Position numbers and translations under genes: made by a program | Part shown: one piece after another, positions 155 to 58,389 of the stretch | How the letters are laid out: each line of letters opens with the position of its first letter | Position numbering within the stretch: position 1 is the stretch's first letter | Source of the DNA: Colwellia sp. 20A7 | GTDB lineage: Bacteria > Pseudomonadota > Gammaproteobacteria > Enterobacterales > Alteromonadaceae | Assembly (NCBI RefSeq): GCF_009832865.1 | Contig: NZ_CP047130.1 | Span: 2,170,001 to 2,234,000, forward strand | Length of the DNA stretch: 64,000 bases | Reading direction: 5' to 3' | The notes under the pieces: model-generated | Database searches by the model: none | Told to the model about the DNA's origin: nothing | Seen by the model: only the letters and a program-made list of their open reading frames with translations

Positions 155-1309
155 TTATGCTGGTACCCTTGAAATACGCGTACTTGGGTCAACAGGCACT
201 AATATTACTTCTCGTGATATCGCCCAAATATATGCGAGCATTTCACGGGCAATGGCAGCGACAACAATATTACGATGCTTACCGCGTTGCATCAGGCGTT
301 TGTATCGTCGGCAAAGCCTTAGTTGGGCTTTCCAAGCAATATCAATAACGACCTTAGGCAGTGTTTCTTGCCGCTTTTGTAGCTCGGTTGACACGTTTGC
401 GTTGTGCTTATAGGTTTGAGCCCCTTCAATTAATAATCGACGTGCTCGGCCATTACCACATTTAGTGATGCCGCCTAGCTTTCGATTATCCCCACTTGAG
501 TTTTCTTTGGGAACTAATCCTAAGTAAGCCATTAGCTTTCTCGGGTGGTCAAAGCGTCTTAAATCACCTAACTCAGCAATGGTACCTACAGCGACTAAAA
601 AACGAATACCTCGCATCGCTTGCAATGCTTGAACGACGGGATAATAGCGCCATAGTTTTGCTTGATGTGCTAATTCATTAACTAATCGTTCAACGCGCTT
701 AATACGTTCGGTAATGGTTTGTATCATTTCTTGCAGCACAATTTGTTGGCTTGGATGCGGCAAAACTAACTCAGTTAGCCAACGTAAATGTTGATTTGAC
801 CAATTGTCATTCACTTTGCAGGTGATGTTGTTGCGCAGAAATAAACCTTTAAGTTGGAATTTAGCATCTTTTAAGTCTTTCATAGCGGTTTCTCTTGCCC
901 TGGATAAATCACGTATTGCTTCGTCTTCAGGCTCGGGGACATAAATCGGGGTTAGCTCCTCGTCTTTAAGGAGTTTGGCCAACTTCATTGCATCACGTTT
1001 ATCGGTTTTGACTTTATCTCCTGGTTTTTTAGGGATAAGCGATGGCGCAACGACATAACAGCAATGACCTAAACTTGTCAGTAGACGGTAAATCCAATAG
1101 CCACATGGACCTGCTTCATAAACAAAATGCAATGTCGCATTAGGGTATTTAGATTGATATTGCCGAGCAAGTTTAGTGATTGCTGCTTTGGTTGTTTTAA
1201 TTTTTCCTTGATGAACAGTTTTTGCGCCACGTTGGTCTTCAATGTGTGCAACTTCAGTAGATACTTTATGGGTATCTAAGCCAATGAAAAGTATGTTATG
1301 TTTATTCAT
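155..1309 (-). CDS. IS110-family transposase (DEDD recombinase)
   Basis: This 384-residue protein is the recombinase of IS copy A and is probably intact. The N-terminal RuvC-like DEDD domain shows GLDTHK (Asp12), VYEAGP (Glu65) and KTDKRDA (Asp103, Asp106). The C-terminal Transposase_20 domain has the serine region NSSGDNRKLGGI near residue 285. In this family the protein acts as a tetramer guided by a structured RNA made from the element's own end and cuts without hairpin intermediates. It starts at ATG directly after the conserved hairpin segment. Remnants of the same gene occur at 6331-6477 (first 49 codons) and 58105-58157 (about 16 codons), so the lineage has been active in this neighbourhood more than once. 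Confidence 0.9.
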   Translation of the reverse strand: MNKHNILFIGLDTHKVSTEVAHIEDQRGAKTVHQGKIKTTKAAITKLARQYQSKYPNATLHFVYEAGPCGYWIYRLLTSLGHCCYVVAPSLIPKKPGDKVKTDKRDAMKLAKLLKDEELTPIYVPEPEDEAIRDLSRARETAMKDLKDAKFQLKGLFLRNNITCKVNDNWSNQHLRWLTELVLPHPSQQIVLQEMIQTITERIKRVERLVNELAHQAKLWRYYPVVQALQAMRGIRFLVAVGTIAELGDLRRFDHPRKLMAYLGLVPKENSSGDNRKLGGITKCGNGRARRLLIEGAQTYKHNANVSTELQKRQETLPKVVIDIAWKAQLRLCRRYKRLMQRGKHRNIVVAAIAREMLAYIWAISREVILVPVDPSTRISRVPA

Positions 1310-2812: not shown

Positions 2813-2908
2813 GCTTAACAAGAAAATCAACAAGGACTAAAAACAGCGGGCTGTTCGCTTTGCTCCATTTTAGCCCACTATTTTTAGCCTGTTATTTGGG
2901 CGTTAGGT
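2813..2908 (+). repeat. attC recombination site, complete
   Basis: The site runs from GCTTAAC (2813-2819, consensus RYYYAAC) to GTTAGGT (2902-2908, consensus GTTRRRY). The inner arms AGCGGGCTG and TAGCCCACT pair, so the bottom strand can fold into the hairpin used by integron integrase. The site follows directly on the stop of the small membrane protein, as expected for a cassette end. It closely resembles the site at 7360-7459 in its CAAGGACT and TTATTTGGGCGTTAG segments. Confidence 0.8.
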
Positions 2909-3054: not shown

Positions 3055-3864
3055 ATGGATTTAGCCACCGCAAACCCGCAAAAAAATGCCCTTACCTTAG
3101 AAAGATTTGAAGAACATTTACATAAAGCGATTGATAAACCAACCACAAATTTTCGAATGAGAAGAGTGGGTCCTTCTAGGCAAGGCAGAAGAAGAGAAGT
3201 AAAAGTTCATAATGGCGCTCACCGAGCAACATGGGCTAAAACAACCATTAATAGTCGTTTAAGAACCATCAGCATTAACGTATTTCTTAACTTTAAGCAA
3301 AATAATTTAAGGCAGGCAGATTATAGTAAATTAAAAGCTCTCGCTATGGCGGGTATTAAACAGTATTGGTCTAACACTATCACGGTTGATGGGGTGCGCT
3401 TTAACGTAATAGTCAACGCTTTGCATAAAAGTAGCAGTGATGCCATTCCCGTTGATTTAATGATTGAAGAGAGCCCTGACTATGCTAGATCAATGAACCC
3501 CGCGATATTAGGTATAGATGCAAGTTTCGTTTATCAAAAAGGTATACAAGCTCTTGGTGCCCCAGAAAAAGCAATCGATGATGATTTTAAGCTTACTTCA
3601 GCGCATGAATTTGGTCATTCTGTTTTAATGTATGTTGGCGGTATCAGTTTATCTTGGGGTCATAAAGGCTCGACCAACGCGCTATTGCAAAATGTAAAAT
3701 CATCAACTCCTGGATACCCAAACAAAGGTAAACTGGATTTAATGAAATACTATGATGCTAGTAAACGACAACCAGAAAAGCGTCAAAGAATAAATGACTC
3801 TATGGCAATAGAAATAGATGTTAAACGATTAATATGGAGTTCTGAAATATTATGGAAAGATTAA
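3055..3864 (+). CDS. Zinc metallopeptidase-like cassette protein, putative effector
   Basis: The protein has 269 residues from ATG 3055; GGAG at 3045-3048 is a good ribosome binding site for that codon, while ATG 3043 would lie on top of it. HEFGH (about residues 184-188) is the HExxH zinc-binding and catalytic motif of metallopeptidases. A histidine in SLSWGHKG, 14 residues after the second motif histidine, is a candidate third ligand. The N-terminus is basic (RRVGPSRQGRRREVKV) and lacks a signal peptide. The next gene overlaps its 3' end and encodes a lipoprotein, so a secreted peptidase with a periplasmic immunity partner is plausible. The exact peptidase family was not recognised. Confidence 0.6.
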   Translation: MDLATANPQKNALTLERFEEHLHKAIDKPTTNFRMRRVGPSRQGRRREVKVHNGAHRATWAKTTINSRLRTISINVFLNFKQNNLRQADYSKLKALAMAGIKQYWSNTITVDGVRFNVIVNALHKSSSDAIPVDLMIEESPDYARSMNPAILGIDASFVYQKGIQALGAPEKAIDDDFKLTSAHEFGHSVLMYVGGISLSWGHKGSTNALLQNVKSSTPGYPNKGKLDLMKYYDASKRQPEKRQRINDSMAIEIDVKRLIWSSEILWKD

Positions 3865-4238
3865 GAAATTGGTATAAGTATTTATTGATAATACTTATAC
3901 CTATACTACTTAGTGCATGTTCAAATATTTACTGGGGAATTATTAAAAACAATACTAATGAGGTTATTAAAGTAAAGCTTACTTTAACAAACGAATACGG
4001 CACTCAGGTTTTGGAGCTTCTACCTATAGAATCTAAAGACAGTAGCATATGGGAATATGAACAATCATCACTTATAATCAGCAAAATAGATAAAGATTTA
4101 TCTTTGGTTGAGGCAACGAATAGAAAAGGTTGCACTATTACTTTTGATCGCACAGCGATAGAGAAAAACGTTGAAAGCCATAGACAACAAATCGTGATTG
4201 AACCTCAAGACTTCATTGATGCTTGTGGAAAACAATAA
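3852..4238 (+). CDS. Lipoprotein, putative immunity partner of the metallopeptidase
   Basis: This 128-residue protein has a type II signal peptide with lipobox LSAC (cysteine near residue 23). The mature part is predicted to be periplasmic, with mixed strand-like character and a late cysteine pair (GCTI and DACG). Its ATG lies 13 bases inside the upstream metallopeptidase gene, so translation is probably coupled. It is the last gene before an attC. Co-location with a peptidase lacking a signal peptide fits an effector and periplasmic immunity lipoprotein, but this is inferred from context only. Confidence 0.55.
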   Translation: MERLRNWYKYLLIILIPILLSACSNIYWGIIKNNTNEVIKVKLTLTNEYGTQVLELLPIESKDSSIWEYEQSSLIISKIDKDLSLVEATNRKGCTITFDRTAIEKNVESHRQQIVIEPQDFIDACGKQ

Positions 4239-4257
4239 TAACCTAGATGAACATTCT

Positions 4258-4301
4258 GACTACTACCAAATAGCATCTAAAGAAACTATTTGGTAGTAGT
4301 C
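4258..4301. other. Perfect 16-bp inverted repeat between cassette gene and attC
   Basis: GACTACTACCAAATAG (4258-4273) and CTATTTGGTAGTAGTC (4286-4301) are exact inverted repeats around a 12-base loop, 20 bases after the lipoprotein stop. No T-run follows on either strand, so it is not a standard intrinsic terminator. It could stabilise the cassette mRNA 3' end or be a protein site. Confidence 0.6.
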
Positions 4302-4331
4302 AAAGCATAAAATAATGTAGCTGAATTAAAT

Positions 4332-4378
4332 ACCTAACAAGGGTTTTCAAGTCGGACAAATTACAGTTGGCTTTTTGT
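4332..4378 (+). repeat. attC left half, split by IS1111-type element
   Basis: The site starts with ACCTAAC (4332-4338) and runs through ACAGTTGGC to the insertion point. Its right half continues at 5747-5797 with TTAGCCAAC and ends with GTTAGGT. Joining the halves restores the inner arms GTTGGCT and AGCCAAC, so an attC was interrupted near the tip of its stem. Confidence 0.75.
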
Positions 4379-4450
4379 TCAATGGTATGGACTCCTCACC
4401 TTTGACCAAATAGGTTAAGGTGAAGACGCGAATCATTAGGAGCCCAAACC

Positions 4451-5476
4451 ATGAAAAATTCTACCACTATCAGTATCGATTTAGCTAAAACTGTTTTCCA
4501 AGTTGCCTTATTTAATAAATATGGCGTAATGAAATCTAATAATAAAATGAGCCAAGCTAAAATGGTTCAGTTTATCGCCCAGCACCCAGAAGCAACTATT
4601 TGCATGGAAGCATGCGGAACCGCTCATTATTGGGGGCGTCGTTTTCAACAAAGTGGTCATAAAGTATTACTTGTTCCTGCACATATTGCCGCAAAATACC
4701 GCACAGGTAATAAAAATGATGCTAACGATGCGTTAGCTATTTATGAGTCAATTAATCGTCCTAAAACTTATTTTGTCCAAGTAAAAAACCTTGATCAGCA
4801 AGACTTGGCAAGTTTACTTAAGCTACGACAAGGCTATGTAAAACAACGCACTCAAACAGCAAATAGAATAAGGGGCTTAGGCCTAGAATATGGGGTTAAA
4901 ATTCCTAAAGGTATTGCTAAAATACGCAAAGATTTACCATGTTTCCTGGAAGATGCAGAGAATGAGTTGACGACGTCTAGTCGATTTATTTTAAGGGATC
5001 TACTCGATCAACTTTTGTTGCTGGATGGTCAAATTGATGAATCAACGAATAGATTAGTTGCTAGAGCTAAGGAAGTACCTGTTTGTATACGATTGATTGC
5101 GTTGCCAGGTGTTGCTTGGATAATTGCCAGTGCGCTTTATGCAAGATTGGGAGATGGCTCAGCGTATAAGTGTGGTCGTGATGCCAGCGCAAGCGTTGGT
5201 GTAGTTCCTGCTCATTCAGGAACGGGTGGAAATAATAAGTTATTAGGGATAACGAAACGAGGTGATAGGTGTTTACGCTCATTACTTGTTCATGGAGCAC
5301 GTTCAGTTGTTAGTCGAATTAAAGACAAGCAAGATGGGTTGAGTTGTTGGATAAGAGAGCAACTATCAAAGAATCATTTAAACAAAACTGCGGTTGCTTA
5401 CGCCAATAAGCTAGTCAGAATGGCATGGGCTATTTTGAAGAGTGGTGAAGAATATCGAACACCTTTAGCTCAGTAG
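4451..5476 (+). CDS. IS1111/IS110-family transposase
   Basis: This 341-residue DEDD recombinase appears intact. The N-terminal domain shows ISIDLAK (Asp10), ICMEACG (Glu53) and KNDANDA (Asp90, Asp93). The C-terminal Transposase_20 domain has the helix-hairpin-helix-like stretch ALPGVAWIIA and the serine region VVPAHSGTGGNNK near residue 255. Start ATG follows AGGAGCCCAAACC. It carries out RNA-guided insertion and excision of the surrounding element. Differences from the other two IS110-type transposases here show a separate lineage. Confidence 0.92.
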   Translation: MKNSTTISIDLAKTVFQVALFNKYGVMKSNNKMSQAKMVQFIAQHPEATICMEACGTAHYWGRRFQQSGHKVLLVPAHIAAKYRTGNKNDANDALAIYESINRPKTYFVQVKNLDQQDLASLLKLRQGYVKQRTQTANRIRGLGLEYGVKIPKGIAKIRKDLPCFLEDAENELTTSSRFILRDLLDQLLLLDGQIDESTNRLVARAKEVPVCIRLIALPGVAWIIASALYARLGDGSAYKCGRDASASVGVVPAHSGTGGNNKLLGITKRGDRCLRSLLVHGARSVVSRIKDKQDGLSCWIREQLSKNHLNKTAVAYANKLVRMAWAILKSGEEYRTPLAQ

Positions 5477-5479
5477 TGT

Positions 5480-5735
5480 TTGATAAACCTTGAAAAAGTA
5501 ACTAAGTTAACCGAGTATAAGCAGTCGTAAAATAATAATGTAAAGTGTATCAACGCACGCAAGGCAAAACCTGTGAGGCACGACGGTATTCAAATACCTC
5601 TTACTCGTTAAGGAGCTTTGTAAGTGGATTAAGCCATTAAGGTTCGGGGTAGCTCCCCATCAGAAACCGAATATACGTGAACTTGCTACATACATTTAAA
5701 TTTATTACGATTAACGGCTTGCTATGCAAGAGGAG
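5480..5735 (+). ncRNA. Predicted bridge RNA (seekRNA) of the IS1111-type element
   Basis: IS1111-group elements encode their guide RNA after the transposase. Here GTGAGGCAC (5573-5581) is the exact reverse complement of GTGCCTCAC across the right junction (5745-5753). ATATACGTG (5671-5679) is identical to the element's right end (5739-5747). The first fits a target guide and the second a donor guide. Short hairpins lie between them: GGTATT/AATACC at 5585-5598 and GGGG/CCCC at 5646-5658. TTTGT at 5617-5621 also matches the left target next to its GT. RNA ends are unknown. Confidence 0.6.
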
Positions 5736-5746
5736 TCCATATACGT

Positions 5747-5797
5747 GCCTCACTTATTTTAGCCAACAGCAATTTGCCGCTTAAAACGGCGTTAGGT
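5747..5797 (+). repeat. attC right half, after the IS insertion
   Basis: The half-site continues the attC that begins at 4332. It contains TTAGCCAAC, the GCCGCTTAAAACGGC stem and ends with GTTAGGT (5791-5797). The same CGCCGCTTAA...GCGGCGTTAG pattern occurs in the site at 6874-6970. It marks the start of the next cassette. Confidence 0.75.
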
Positions 5798-6330: not shown

Positions 6331-6580
6331 CCGAGCAAGTTTAGTGATTGCTGCTTTGGTTGTTTTAATTTTTCCTTGATGAACAGTTTTTGCGCCACGT
6401 TGGTCTTCAATGTGTGCAACTTCAGTAGATACTTTATGGGTATCTAAGCCAATGAAAAGTATGTTATGTTTATTCATGCTAGCCTCTATTTTATATTGTT
6501 GATAAATATATTATGGCTCTGGTTTGTAAAACTAACCCACGAATTTAGAGGCTAGCACTTTGTGGGGAGTCATTATGTCT
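6331..6580 (-). pseudogene. IS110 copy B: transposase 5' fragment plus upstream region
   Basis: The fragment matches IS copy A almost exactly, from codon 49 of the transposase back through its ATG (6475-6477) and the whole upstream hairpin region to TCATTATGTCT. The rest of the gene is missing; the break lies against the right flank of a RAYT-derived 47-bp element. The near identity with copy A suggests a recent event. The intact element end next to the DUF3781-like gene shows a second insertion site of this lineage. Confidence 0.85.
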
Positions 6581-7033
6581 ATGAGTTTAAGTATGAATCA
6601 AGCTTTGAAAGTGTCGATAACTGAAGGTTTTAAAAATACTGCTTTAGGATTTTTGAGAATAAGAAAAAATCTAAATGTCACTCATTTTTCAGACGTTGAA
6701 ACAGAAGGTTATTTAAAAGAAATCCTATTATCAACCCCGCTTGAGGATATAGAATCGAAGGGTAAAAACCATTATTTCAAATGCATTAGTAAAAATGCAA
6801 TTTTAACGGTTAACTCTCATAGTTTCACTATTATCACCGCAAAGGAAATAAACAAGAGTCCGCGGGTAAAAAACTCCATACAAGGCATTAAAGTCGGACT
6901 CGTAACAGTTTGCTCGGTTCCGCTTCACATTTTAGCAAACTGTTTCTCGCCGCTTAATGCGGCGTTAGCTGTCACAATCCACCAATGGAGTATTACAAAT
7001 GAACTTGGAAGTTTTAGAATTTTTACTGGATAA
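6575..7033 (+). CDS. DUF3781-like cassette protein, reading into attC
   Basis: From ATG 6575 the frame gives 152 residues, but only about the first 98 look natural. SKGKNHYFKC and ILTVNSHSFTIITAKEIN match the DUF3781 pattern (a lysine- and glycine-rich strand, then T-N-S/A-x-S/T-Y/F-T-I-I-T-A). After that the frame runs through the attC (6874-6970) and over the start of the next gene, so the original stop was probably lost. The first codons come from the IS110 end. The native start was probably replaced or is ATG 6581 or 6593. DUF3781 function is unknown. The gene may be non-functional. Confidence 0.5.
   Translation: MSMSLSMNQALKVSITEGFKNTALGFLRIRKNLNVTHFSDVETEGYLKEILLSTPLEDIESKGKNHYFKCISKNAILTVNSHSFTIITAKEINKSPRVKNSIQGIKVGLVTVCSVPLHILANCFSPLNAALAVTIHQWSITNELGSFRIFTG
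6874..6970 (+). repeat. attC site with degenerate left core
   Basis: The right core is GTTAGCT (6964-6970). Inner arms ACAGTTTGCT and AGCAAACTGT are perfect complements, and the CGCCGCTTAATGCGGCG stem precedes the core. The left core should lie near CCATACAAGG (6875-6884), where RYYYAAC is not intact. The interior resembles the attC split by the IS1111-type element. Confidence 0.7.
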
Positions 7034-7359: not shown

Positions 7360-7459
7360 AGCTAACAAGCAAATTAACTAGGACTTAAAACAGTTTGCTG
7401 TTTTTCGTTCCTCAAACATTTTAGCAAACAATTTTAAGCCTGTTATTTGGGCGTTAGCT
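7360..7459 (+). repeat. attC recombination site, complete
   Basis: The site runs from AGCTAAC (7360-7366) to GTTAGCT (7453-7459), which are exact complements. Inner arms ACAGTTTGCTG and TAGCAAACA pair. It shares the TTATTTGGGCGTTAG segment with the site at 2813-2908. Confidence 0.8.
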
Positions 7460-9417: not shown

Positions 9418-10227
9418 TTAAAACTTACTTTCCACCGCATATTTCAATAGTGGTGATCCCTTACTTTTCAAAGCGGCAAGGTAGGTAGGTTCATCATATG
9501 CCGTACTTGTTTTCCAACACCGAAATAATATCCTTATCCACTTAAAAGCCAATGCTCTAATTATCGTATTGTGCGGTTTTCCTTTAGCAGCTTGTTGTTG
9601 GTAATACGCTTTCGCCCAAAAAGAATAACGAACAGATAACCCCGCCGATTCAACAAAGGTTTGTCGTAAAAATTTAGTACAGGAGTAGCGCCAATGTATC
9701 CATTCTTTTTTACCGCTTCGCTCTGTTACAGGCGCTATGCCAGCATACTTTTGAACCTCTTCACATGACTGATAACGCTCTCTATTTGAGCCCATTGCGG
9801 CCAATAAACGCGGAGCTATTTGTGGGCCTGCACCAGGTAAACTGTCAAAGATGAACTTGTCCTTATGGTTTCTATATATTGCTTTTATCTCAACATCAAA
9901 GCGCTCAATAGCGACCATTAACTGTTTAAGTTGAGCGGTTAAACATTCAACGAGTAGTTTGTTAGGCGAGATAATCGCATTATCTGTGGTAAGTGCTTCT
10001 GCGCTTTTTATCTCCTGAATACGCTTTTCATTGACTGCTGGGTAACGTGAATTATGTTGGTTAAAAAAATCAATTAATGTTTGTTTTCTTGCGCGTTTGA
10101 CTTGCTCAAGAGATGGCCAGCGCATGATGAAATCACAAAACACCTGAGTATCTTTTTCTTTAAACCAATCAAGTACATGTGGGTAATAATTTTTAAGGGT
10201 TGTGGTTATTTTATTAGTTAAGTTCAA
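9418..10227 (-). pseudogene. IS110-family transposase lacking its N-terminal domain
   Basis: The remaining 269 residues hold the linker and the C-terminal Transposase_20 domain (DSLPGAGPQIAPRLLAAMG, then YAGIAPVTERSGKK). The DEDD catalytic domain expected before it, roughly 120-150 residues, is absent. The break abuts a 47-bp RAYT-derived element at 10236, and no start codon is in place. It differs from the other two transposases in the window and is a third lineage. A shorter, decayed relative is at 57450-57605 next to the same attC arm. Confidence 0.85.
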
Positions 10228-58220: not shown

Positions 58221-58349
58221 TCGTTAAATTTCTAAATTTTTCAAGGGCTTTTCTGTGAGGCATGGTCTGAAGGAATCAGCTAGCAAATTTGCGAGCTGAT
58301 GAACAATAAAACCATCTCATTGTAACTAGTCTCTGTTATTACATTAACA

Positions 58350-58389
58350 GCTAAAACAAAGGCCGACGCTGCATCCTGTTTCGACCTTT
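58350..58389 (-). terminator. Intrinsic terminator of the antiporter gene
   Basis: On the minus strand AAAGGTCGA and TCGGCCTTT form a 9-bp stem with a wobble, followed by TGTTTT. Confidence 0.65.

Follow-up and report, generated by a model that had tools for sequence, protein, structure and literature searches.

Target selection by RNA guides in insertion sequences (IS) of the IS1111 family, including members that target the end of integron attC sites, has already been published (PMC11187229; PMC11208160). ISKpn4 and ISPst6 are reported to have one end of attC as their target (Siddiquee et al., 2024; PMC11187229), and together with ISPa25 they stand for the IS1111-attC group, whose features include a DEDD transposase, subterminal inverted repeats with extensions of 7 and 3 bp, an attC target and a downstream seekRNA in which the complement of the top strand lies 5' of the match to the bottom strand (PMC11187229). 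IS621, a member of the IS110 group, has an RNA with target- and donor-binding regions whose left and right guides overlap in the target, but this RNA lies in the left end of the element and the system uses a 2-bp core (Durrant et al., 2024; PMC11208160). Here we describe an element of Colwellia sp. 20A7 in a window of 64,000 nucleotides (nt), the whole stretch of DNA analysed, corresponding to positions 2,170,001-2,234,000 of a one-contig genome of 4,580,615 bp. The element, a new member of the IS1111 family, shares the listed features of ISKpn4, ISPst6 and ISPa25, and like them it is inserted in an integron attC. It differs from ISKpn4 and ISPst6, however, in that it sits in the terminal loop of attC rather than at one end; as a target, this position may be new. 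We consider it very probable that a bridge (seek) RNA encoded downstream of the transposase directs this IS to attC loops, so that the element apparently works like the published attC targeters despite its different position in attC.

An IS1111-family element in the terminal loop of attC

The element and the two halves of the attC that it interrupts comprise the following features, given in window positions with the evidence for each.

4332-4380, plus strand: left half of the attC that the element splits, with the R'' and L'' boxes, the left inner arm and the loop as far as the insertion point, ending in TTTTTGTTC; near-identical empty attC, pairing with the right half
4380-5743, plus strand: IS1111-family element, 1,364 bp; five genome copies and an empty twin attC
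4386-4397, plus strand: left subterminal inverted repeat TATGGACTCCTC; sequence and copies
4451-5476, plus strand: DEDD transposase/recombinase, 341 amino acids; PF01548 and PF02371
5730-5741, minus strand: right subterminal inverted repeat, GAGGAGTCCATA on the plus strand; sequence and copies
5744-5797, plus strand: right half of the split attC, with the right target GTGCCTCAC, the right inner arm and the L' and R' boxes; sequence, copies and folding

The transposase, which matches the profile NF033542 'IS110 family RNA-guided transposase' with 280.5 bits (cut-off 140), has the size and the C-terminal PF02371 domain that are hallmarks of the IS1111 family (a DEDD transposase of about 330-350 amino acids). 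Seven of its residues (D10, E53, D90, D93, G250, P253 and G259) are invariant across 8 aligned transposases, and we take D10, E53, D90 and D93 to be the catalytic DEDD residues. A sequence search against solved structures (E 0.01) gave no match. Further IS1111 hallmarks are the long non-coding region downstream of the gene (5477-5729, about 250 bp, while only about 50 bp separate the left repeat from the gene), the lack of a target duplication and the single orientation in a specific target. The subterminal inverted repeats are perfect over 12 bp, as compared with the usual 11-13 bp of the family, which carries extensions of 7 bp on the left and 3 bp on the right (PMC11187229). The limits of the element were set by this published convention, and the extensions, counted from ATGGACTCCTC, are thus CAATGGT (7) and ATA (3); since the C at 4380/5744 is shared, limits of 4381-5744 are equally possible.

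The genome contains five full copies, 100% identical over 4379-5746 (1,368 bases), as well as a truncated left end. All five full copies (5/5) lie in attC loops in a single orientation, with left flanks ending in YTC and right flanks starting with GTGCCTCRC. The same genome also contains a near-identical empty counterpart of the window's attC (G000:356469-356565), which reads gctatttgTTC/GTGCCTCActtattttagccaac, where the slash marks the junction. This empty site places the insertion point at TTC/GTGCCTCAC, shows that no target sequence was duplicated and identifies the TC before the element as target sequence. The insertion point is about 50 bp from either end of attC, and the empty attC, folded as its bottom strand, forms a long hairpin with the target in its terminal loop (z -4.16). 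The pattern YTCGTGCCTCR has seven exact matches in the genome, all on the forward strand, while the same pattern read backwards as a control has one forward and two reverse matches. Judged by eye, five of these matches fall in clear attC loops, a sixth (1,741,014) resembles attC but has a degenerate outer box, and the seventh (2,023,865) is not an attC.

An earlier note made from the sequence alone (the original prediction) had already described an IS1111-type element inside attC whose removal restores an attC with paired arms. The family profiles and the five copies in attC loops bear out the former claim, and the natural empty attC the latter.

The predicted downstream RNA and its guides

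The non-coding region downstream of the transposase contains the following predicted features.

5557-5686, plus strand: predicted bridge/seekRNA core (span of covariance model R1); covariation and model match
5573-5583, plus strand: predicted right target guide GUGAGGCACGA, complementary to the top strand TC/GTGCCTCAC; sequence and guide-target comparison
5601-5607, plus strand: predicted left target guide UUACUCG (TTACTCG), in the sense of the top strand on the left side of the junction, with the bottom strand as its expected pairing partner; alignment columns
5634-5638, plus strand: probable right donor guide CCAUU (CCATT), complementary to AATGG at the left end of the element; inspection, assignment deduced
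5671-5677, plus strand: probable left donor guide AUAUACG, containing the right end of the element, ATATAC (5739-5744); assignment deduced

The RNA was modelled from an alignment of about 130 nt from eight close elements, namely that of the window and the following relatives (transposase figures at the amino acid level).

L041, metagenome-assembled genome (MAG) of Aliivibrio: 98%
L044, L045 and L046, Colwellia: 84-92%
L042, Marinifaba: 67%
L106, plasmid of Pseudoalteromonas donghaensis, 3850-5430: 66%
L043, MAG of Thiotrichaceae: 62%

The resulting structure of 21 pairs consists of 100% standard pairs, of which 8/21 have changes on both sides, a result found in 0/500 shuffles. When the structure was slid by 1-3 columns, 37-58% of the pairs were kept and at most one pair had changes on both sides, a control that is biased in favour of the structure, since the latter was derived from the same eight sequences with some predicted pairs omitted; left out by choice were a pairing between the two target guides and an ACG-CGT pairing, both predicted by RNAalifold, and a GTGG-CCAT hairpin. 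The covariance model R1 was run on the window, on the 7 other training loci and on 47 further loci with an IS110/IS1111 transposase, a set that takes in only part of the loci with short partial matches. While its 160 bits on the window are high by construction (the window is 1/8 of the training rows), the model also found the RNA at 32/47 non-training loci (E up to 0.2; weakest 0.16), with the RNA starting less than about 160 nt 3' of the transposase match in 31/32 of these and at 1.6 kb in L067. On the fetched stretches of the Colwellia sp. 20A7 genome it returned the five copies and one weak minus-strand match (E 0.011), which overlaps an attC at about 355,051-355,141 and is taken as chance. 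No bridge-RNA family was found in the window with Rfam at gathering thresholds. The covariation and the matches at other loci agree with the bridge RNA that the original prediction had placed in this region, and we regard it as very likely that the region encodes such an RNA with a conserved fold.

The sequence strings on which the original prediction was built are all present: GTGAGGCAC at 5573-5581, GTGCCTCAC at 5745-5753, ATATACGTG at both 5671-5679 and 5739-5747, and GT at 4377-4378. Its assignment of GTGAGGCAC as a guide to the right junction stands, and the actual match is longer, as 11 nt (GTGAGGCACGA, 5573-5583) are complementary to TC/GTGCCTCAC, which is uninterrupted in the empty twin. 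The left target guide (5601-5607) and the likely right donor guide (5634-5638) had been overlooked. The proposed 9-base donor match holds for ATATAC, the element's own end, while the GTG after it comes from the target; relatives with a right target of GTT or GTA keep ATATACGTG in their RNA, so that the last two bases of this string do not vary with the target. AUAUACG itself is invariant in the eight close relatives. The GT core said to be common to both junctions has to be given up, because the GT at 4377-4378 belongs to the target, lies two bases outside the junction and is replaced by GC in the other four full copies and by AC in the truncated one. In contrast to the 2-bp core of IS621, only one base is regularly common to both junctions here: the junction base agrees in 30/34 elements for which both junctions are available (exceptions L041, L056, L097 and L109), the junction base and the next one in 16, and the junction base and the one before in 5. 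A 2-bp core thus does not fit this element but may apply to some of the relatives. Finally, copies with the same RNA in targets without GTGCCTCAC had been named as evidence against the guide assignment. Literally, 4/5 copies are of this kind, since they have GTGCCTCGC, but the A-to-G change can still pair with the guide as a U.G wobble and is hence not counted as a refutation.

That changes in the guides track changes in the targets, as the original prediction had proposed to check, is borne out by comparisons among both close and more distant relatives. Right guide GTGAGGCACGA goes with target GTGCCTCAC, whereas L044, L045 and L046 have right guide GAGGAACGA or GAGGAACAA and target GTTCCTC, L043 has GATGGGAACGA and GTTCCCATT, and L106 has GAGAGTTGCGA and GTAACTCGC. 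In the close set, right guides and their own targets form 62/72 Watson-Crick pairs versus a permutation mean of 51.3 (40/40,320 permutations as high); the six different right guides only give 46/54 versus 36.8 (4/720), and the left guides, readable in five elements, give 24/30 versus 17.4 (4/120). For the wider set, guides were taken from fixed columns of the model alignment and identical guides were collapsed to one; among 40 model matches, L108 and L072 were dropped as they have no right end, and at least 6 bases of left flank were available for 33 and at least 8 bases of right flank for 37. Here, left guides gave 145/168 matches (28 guides; permutation mean 55.4, maximum 87) and right guides 201/272 (34 guides, one-base shifts allowed to all; mean 116.4, maximum 148), values reached in 0/100,000 permutations in either case. 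The 33 left comparisons comprise 18 with 6/6, 9 with 5/6, 4 with 4/6 and 2 with 1/6 matching positions. Judged from these alignments, the guides track their targets across the relatives, with an effect so large that there is little room for doubt.

L106 is inserted in a short tandem repeat (CACTTCGTAACTCG-like) that its guides match and is, as read from these sequences, a natural retargeting away from attC. In L043 the site is not recognisable as an attC and the right guide fits; the transposase of this relative (L043 41-1063) has an in-frame stop at residue 40. The natural re-direction pair ISEc11/ISXne4 (PMC11187229) likewise comprises relatives with changed guides at changed targets; unlike in that pair, the change here separates close relatives, both within attC loops (GTG versus GTT) and outside attC (L106). 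Relatives were found in 8/38 other genomes of the genus (E 1e-70) and in 3/394 others of a family sample (E 1e-90), two of them from the same genus, while samples of the order and class (E 1e-90) yielded none outside the element's own genome (0/393 and 0/368 others). Viral contigs contained one relative (37%). On the tree the label of attC-loop targeting needs 2 changes, and it may nevertheless have a single origin.

Proposed mechanism and alternative explanations

According to the mechanism that we propose, the DEDD recombinase together with the RNA would excise the element as a circle joined at ATATA-C-AATGG, with the element ends recognised through a second (donor) loop of the RNA. Two target guides flanking one hairpin would specify YTC/GTGCCTCRC in the loop of a subset of the genome's attCs, a step that the guide-target comparison supports, and by pairing of the RNA to both target strands the circle would be inserted into the attC loop in one orientation and without duplication. 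Several observations weigh against this reading. The donor-end matches ATATACG and CCATT were read by inspection, and the folding energy of the RNA region is unremarkable compared with shuffles (z -0.74, +0.42). The model matched no RNA at 15/47 loci, including the two 35-36% relatives in the same genome. The window's left guide fits its own left target at only 4/6 positions, L097 and L068 fit theirs at 1/6, and the right guide fits at 2/8 positions in L061 and L109, at 4 in L053, L067 and L075 and at 3 in L060, for which the first of its tandem pair of right ends was used; the second fits the guide better by eye. L042 is mismatched at the tracking base (the guide calls for C, the target has A), and the left flank of L041 contains no recognisable attC half. 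In addition, the elements are related and the permutations ignore kinship, so that the permutation counts are not exact probabilities.

The five copies all lie in attC hairpins, and the attC bottom strand folds strongly, as seen above, which would also be expected if the transposase recognised the folded single-stranded attC hairpin, as the integron integrase does, with only incidental guide matches. We consider this very unlikely, because the close relatives whose guides differ are found at target sequences that differ as well, in the case of L106 outside attC, and because TCGTGCCTC is present in 5/28 intact sites versus GTGCCTC in 5/5 occupied ones (one-sided p 0.001), a comparison that is partly circular, as the right half of an occupied site retains the motif, and that rests on a pattern giving 33 rows in the fetched stretches, 5 of which were removed by eye as coding-like. 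Somewhat less improbable, though still unlikely, is a spread of the copies among attCs by homologous recombination instead of transposition. The copies are 100% identical, and 2/5 occupied attCs have poorly pairing halves, as expected from exchange between copies: the arm duplex reaches -22.0 to -23.5 kcal/mol in the three matching attCs versus -15.3 and -12.9 in those at genome 4145754 (L002) and 4142024 (L003). These two suggest chimeras formed by recombination between IS copies; exchange explains only them, however, and the matching halves in 3/5 attCs, together with the empty twin with the same loop, require insertion into intact attCs as well. Least credible of all is that the element is an ordinary member of the IS1111-attC group targeting the conserved attC end. 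Family, anatomy and target class would agree with this, but the junctions contradict it, with the insertion in the terminal loop some 50 bp from the attC ends, and the attC end is occupied by a different element. We retain RNA-guided insertion into attC loops as by far the most probable reading; it provides a bridge-RNA system whose guides are readable from the sequence and can be checked against natural retargeting, including that between two attC loop variants.

Integron context, a second element and other features

An integron integrase (TIGR02249, 468 bits, cut-off 265) is encoded at 4,132,110-4,133,090 of the same genome, with three copies of the element 4-15 kb away, surrounded by attC sites. 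The genome has 16 PF00589 matches, none of them within 100 kb of the window's cassette cluster or of a cluster at 357 kb, and these two therefore look like cassette clusters without an integrase of their own. The window also holds two intact attCs and, at an attC end, a second IS.

1-1413 (genome 2169795-2171413): second IS, left end at attC end
2816-2906, plus strand: intact attC, upstream, same small cassette cluster; G000:2172816, 91 bp
7363-7457, plus strand: intact attC, downstream, loop with CGTTCCTC, the variant beside relatives L044-L046; G000:2177363, 95 bp

The second, IS1111-like element has a transposase of 384 amino acids (window 155-1309, minus strand) and 12-bp subterminal repeats ATGACTCCCCAC; further left ends are at 4143441, 4148662, 358934, 2414079 and 2419225. 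It directly follows the attC end (GCGTTGG/TATGACTCC) in 6/6 left ends in the fetched stretches. In its non-coding region GGGCGTTAGG and CCTAACGG resemble the conserved attC end by eye, although the two strings can also simply pair together. The flanks of this element on the cassette side have no obvious match to a guide. Both IS types occupy one attC, in loop and end, twice (4,142,024/4,143,441 and 357,517/358,934). Window positions 6562-6581 hold a right end of this second IS (GTGGGGAGTCATTATGTCTA), beside the next reading frame and with no matching left end nearby in the window. In L041, another IS-like end (TACATGGACTCCCC, 1894-1907) comes after the stem, at the end of the attC.

Unlike an insertion at the attC end, insertion in the loop would preserve the arm pairing on which the integron integrase depends. 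When the 1,466-nt bottom strand of the filled site was folded, most right-arm bases paired with the left half at 0.9-1.0, on the assumption that the entire stretch is single-stranded. The terminal part of attC is reported to contribute little to efficiency (PMC3518468), non-recombinogenic attC folds can be favoured by large terminal structures (PMC5371416), and experimental evidence on how an inserted IS affects attC function is limited (PMC11616780). It is conceivable, if doubtful, that an RNA-guided IS lineage has become a specialist of the attC loop, a safe harbour in which the integrase-binding arms stay unbroken, that IS-bearing cassettes could still fold, recombine and spread the IS, and that two RNA-guided elements can share one attC, in loop and end. 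In the literature searched, mostly titles and abstracts and without the founding IS1111-attC papers, we found no IS in an attC loop, no retargeting between loop variants and no co-occupied attC, which does not show their absence from print. The two routes of integron invasion, loop and end, are separated in one genome and make the IS effect on attC function directly testable.

Elsewhere in the window, a third IS110-type reading frame (9418-10227, minus strand) matched only the C-terminal domain PF02371, and Rfam identified a group II intron (D1-D4-3, 36.3 bits) at 58249-58358 on the plus strand.
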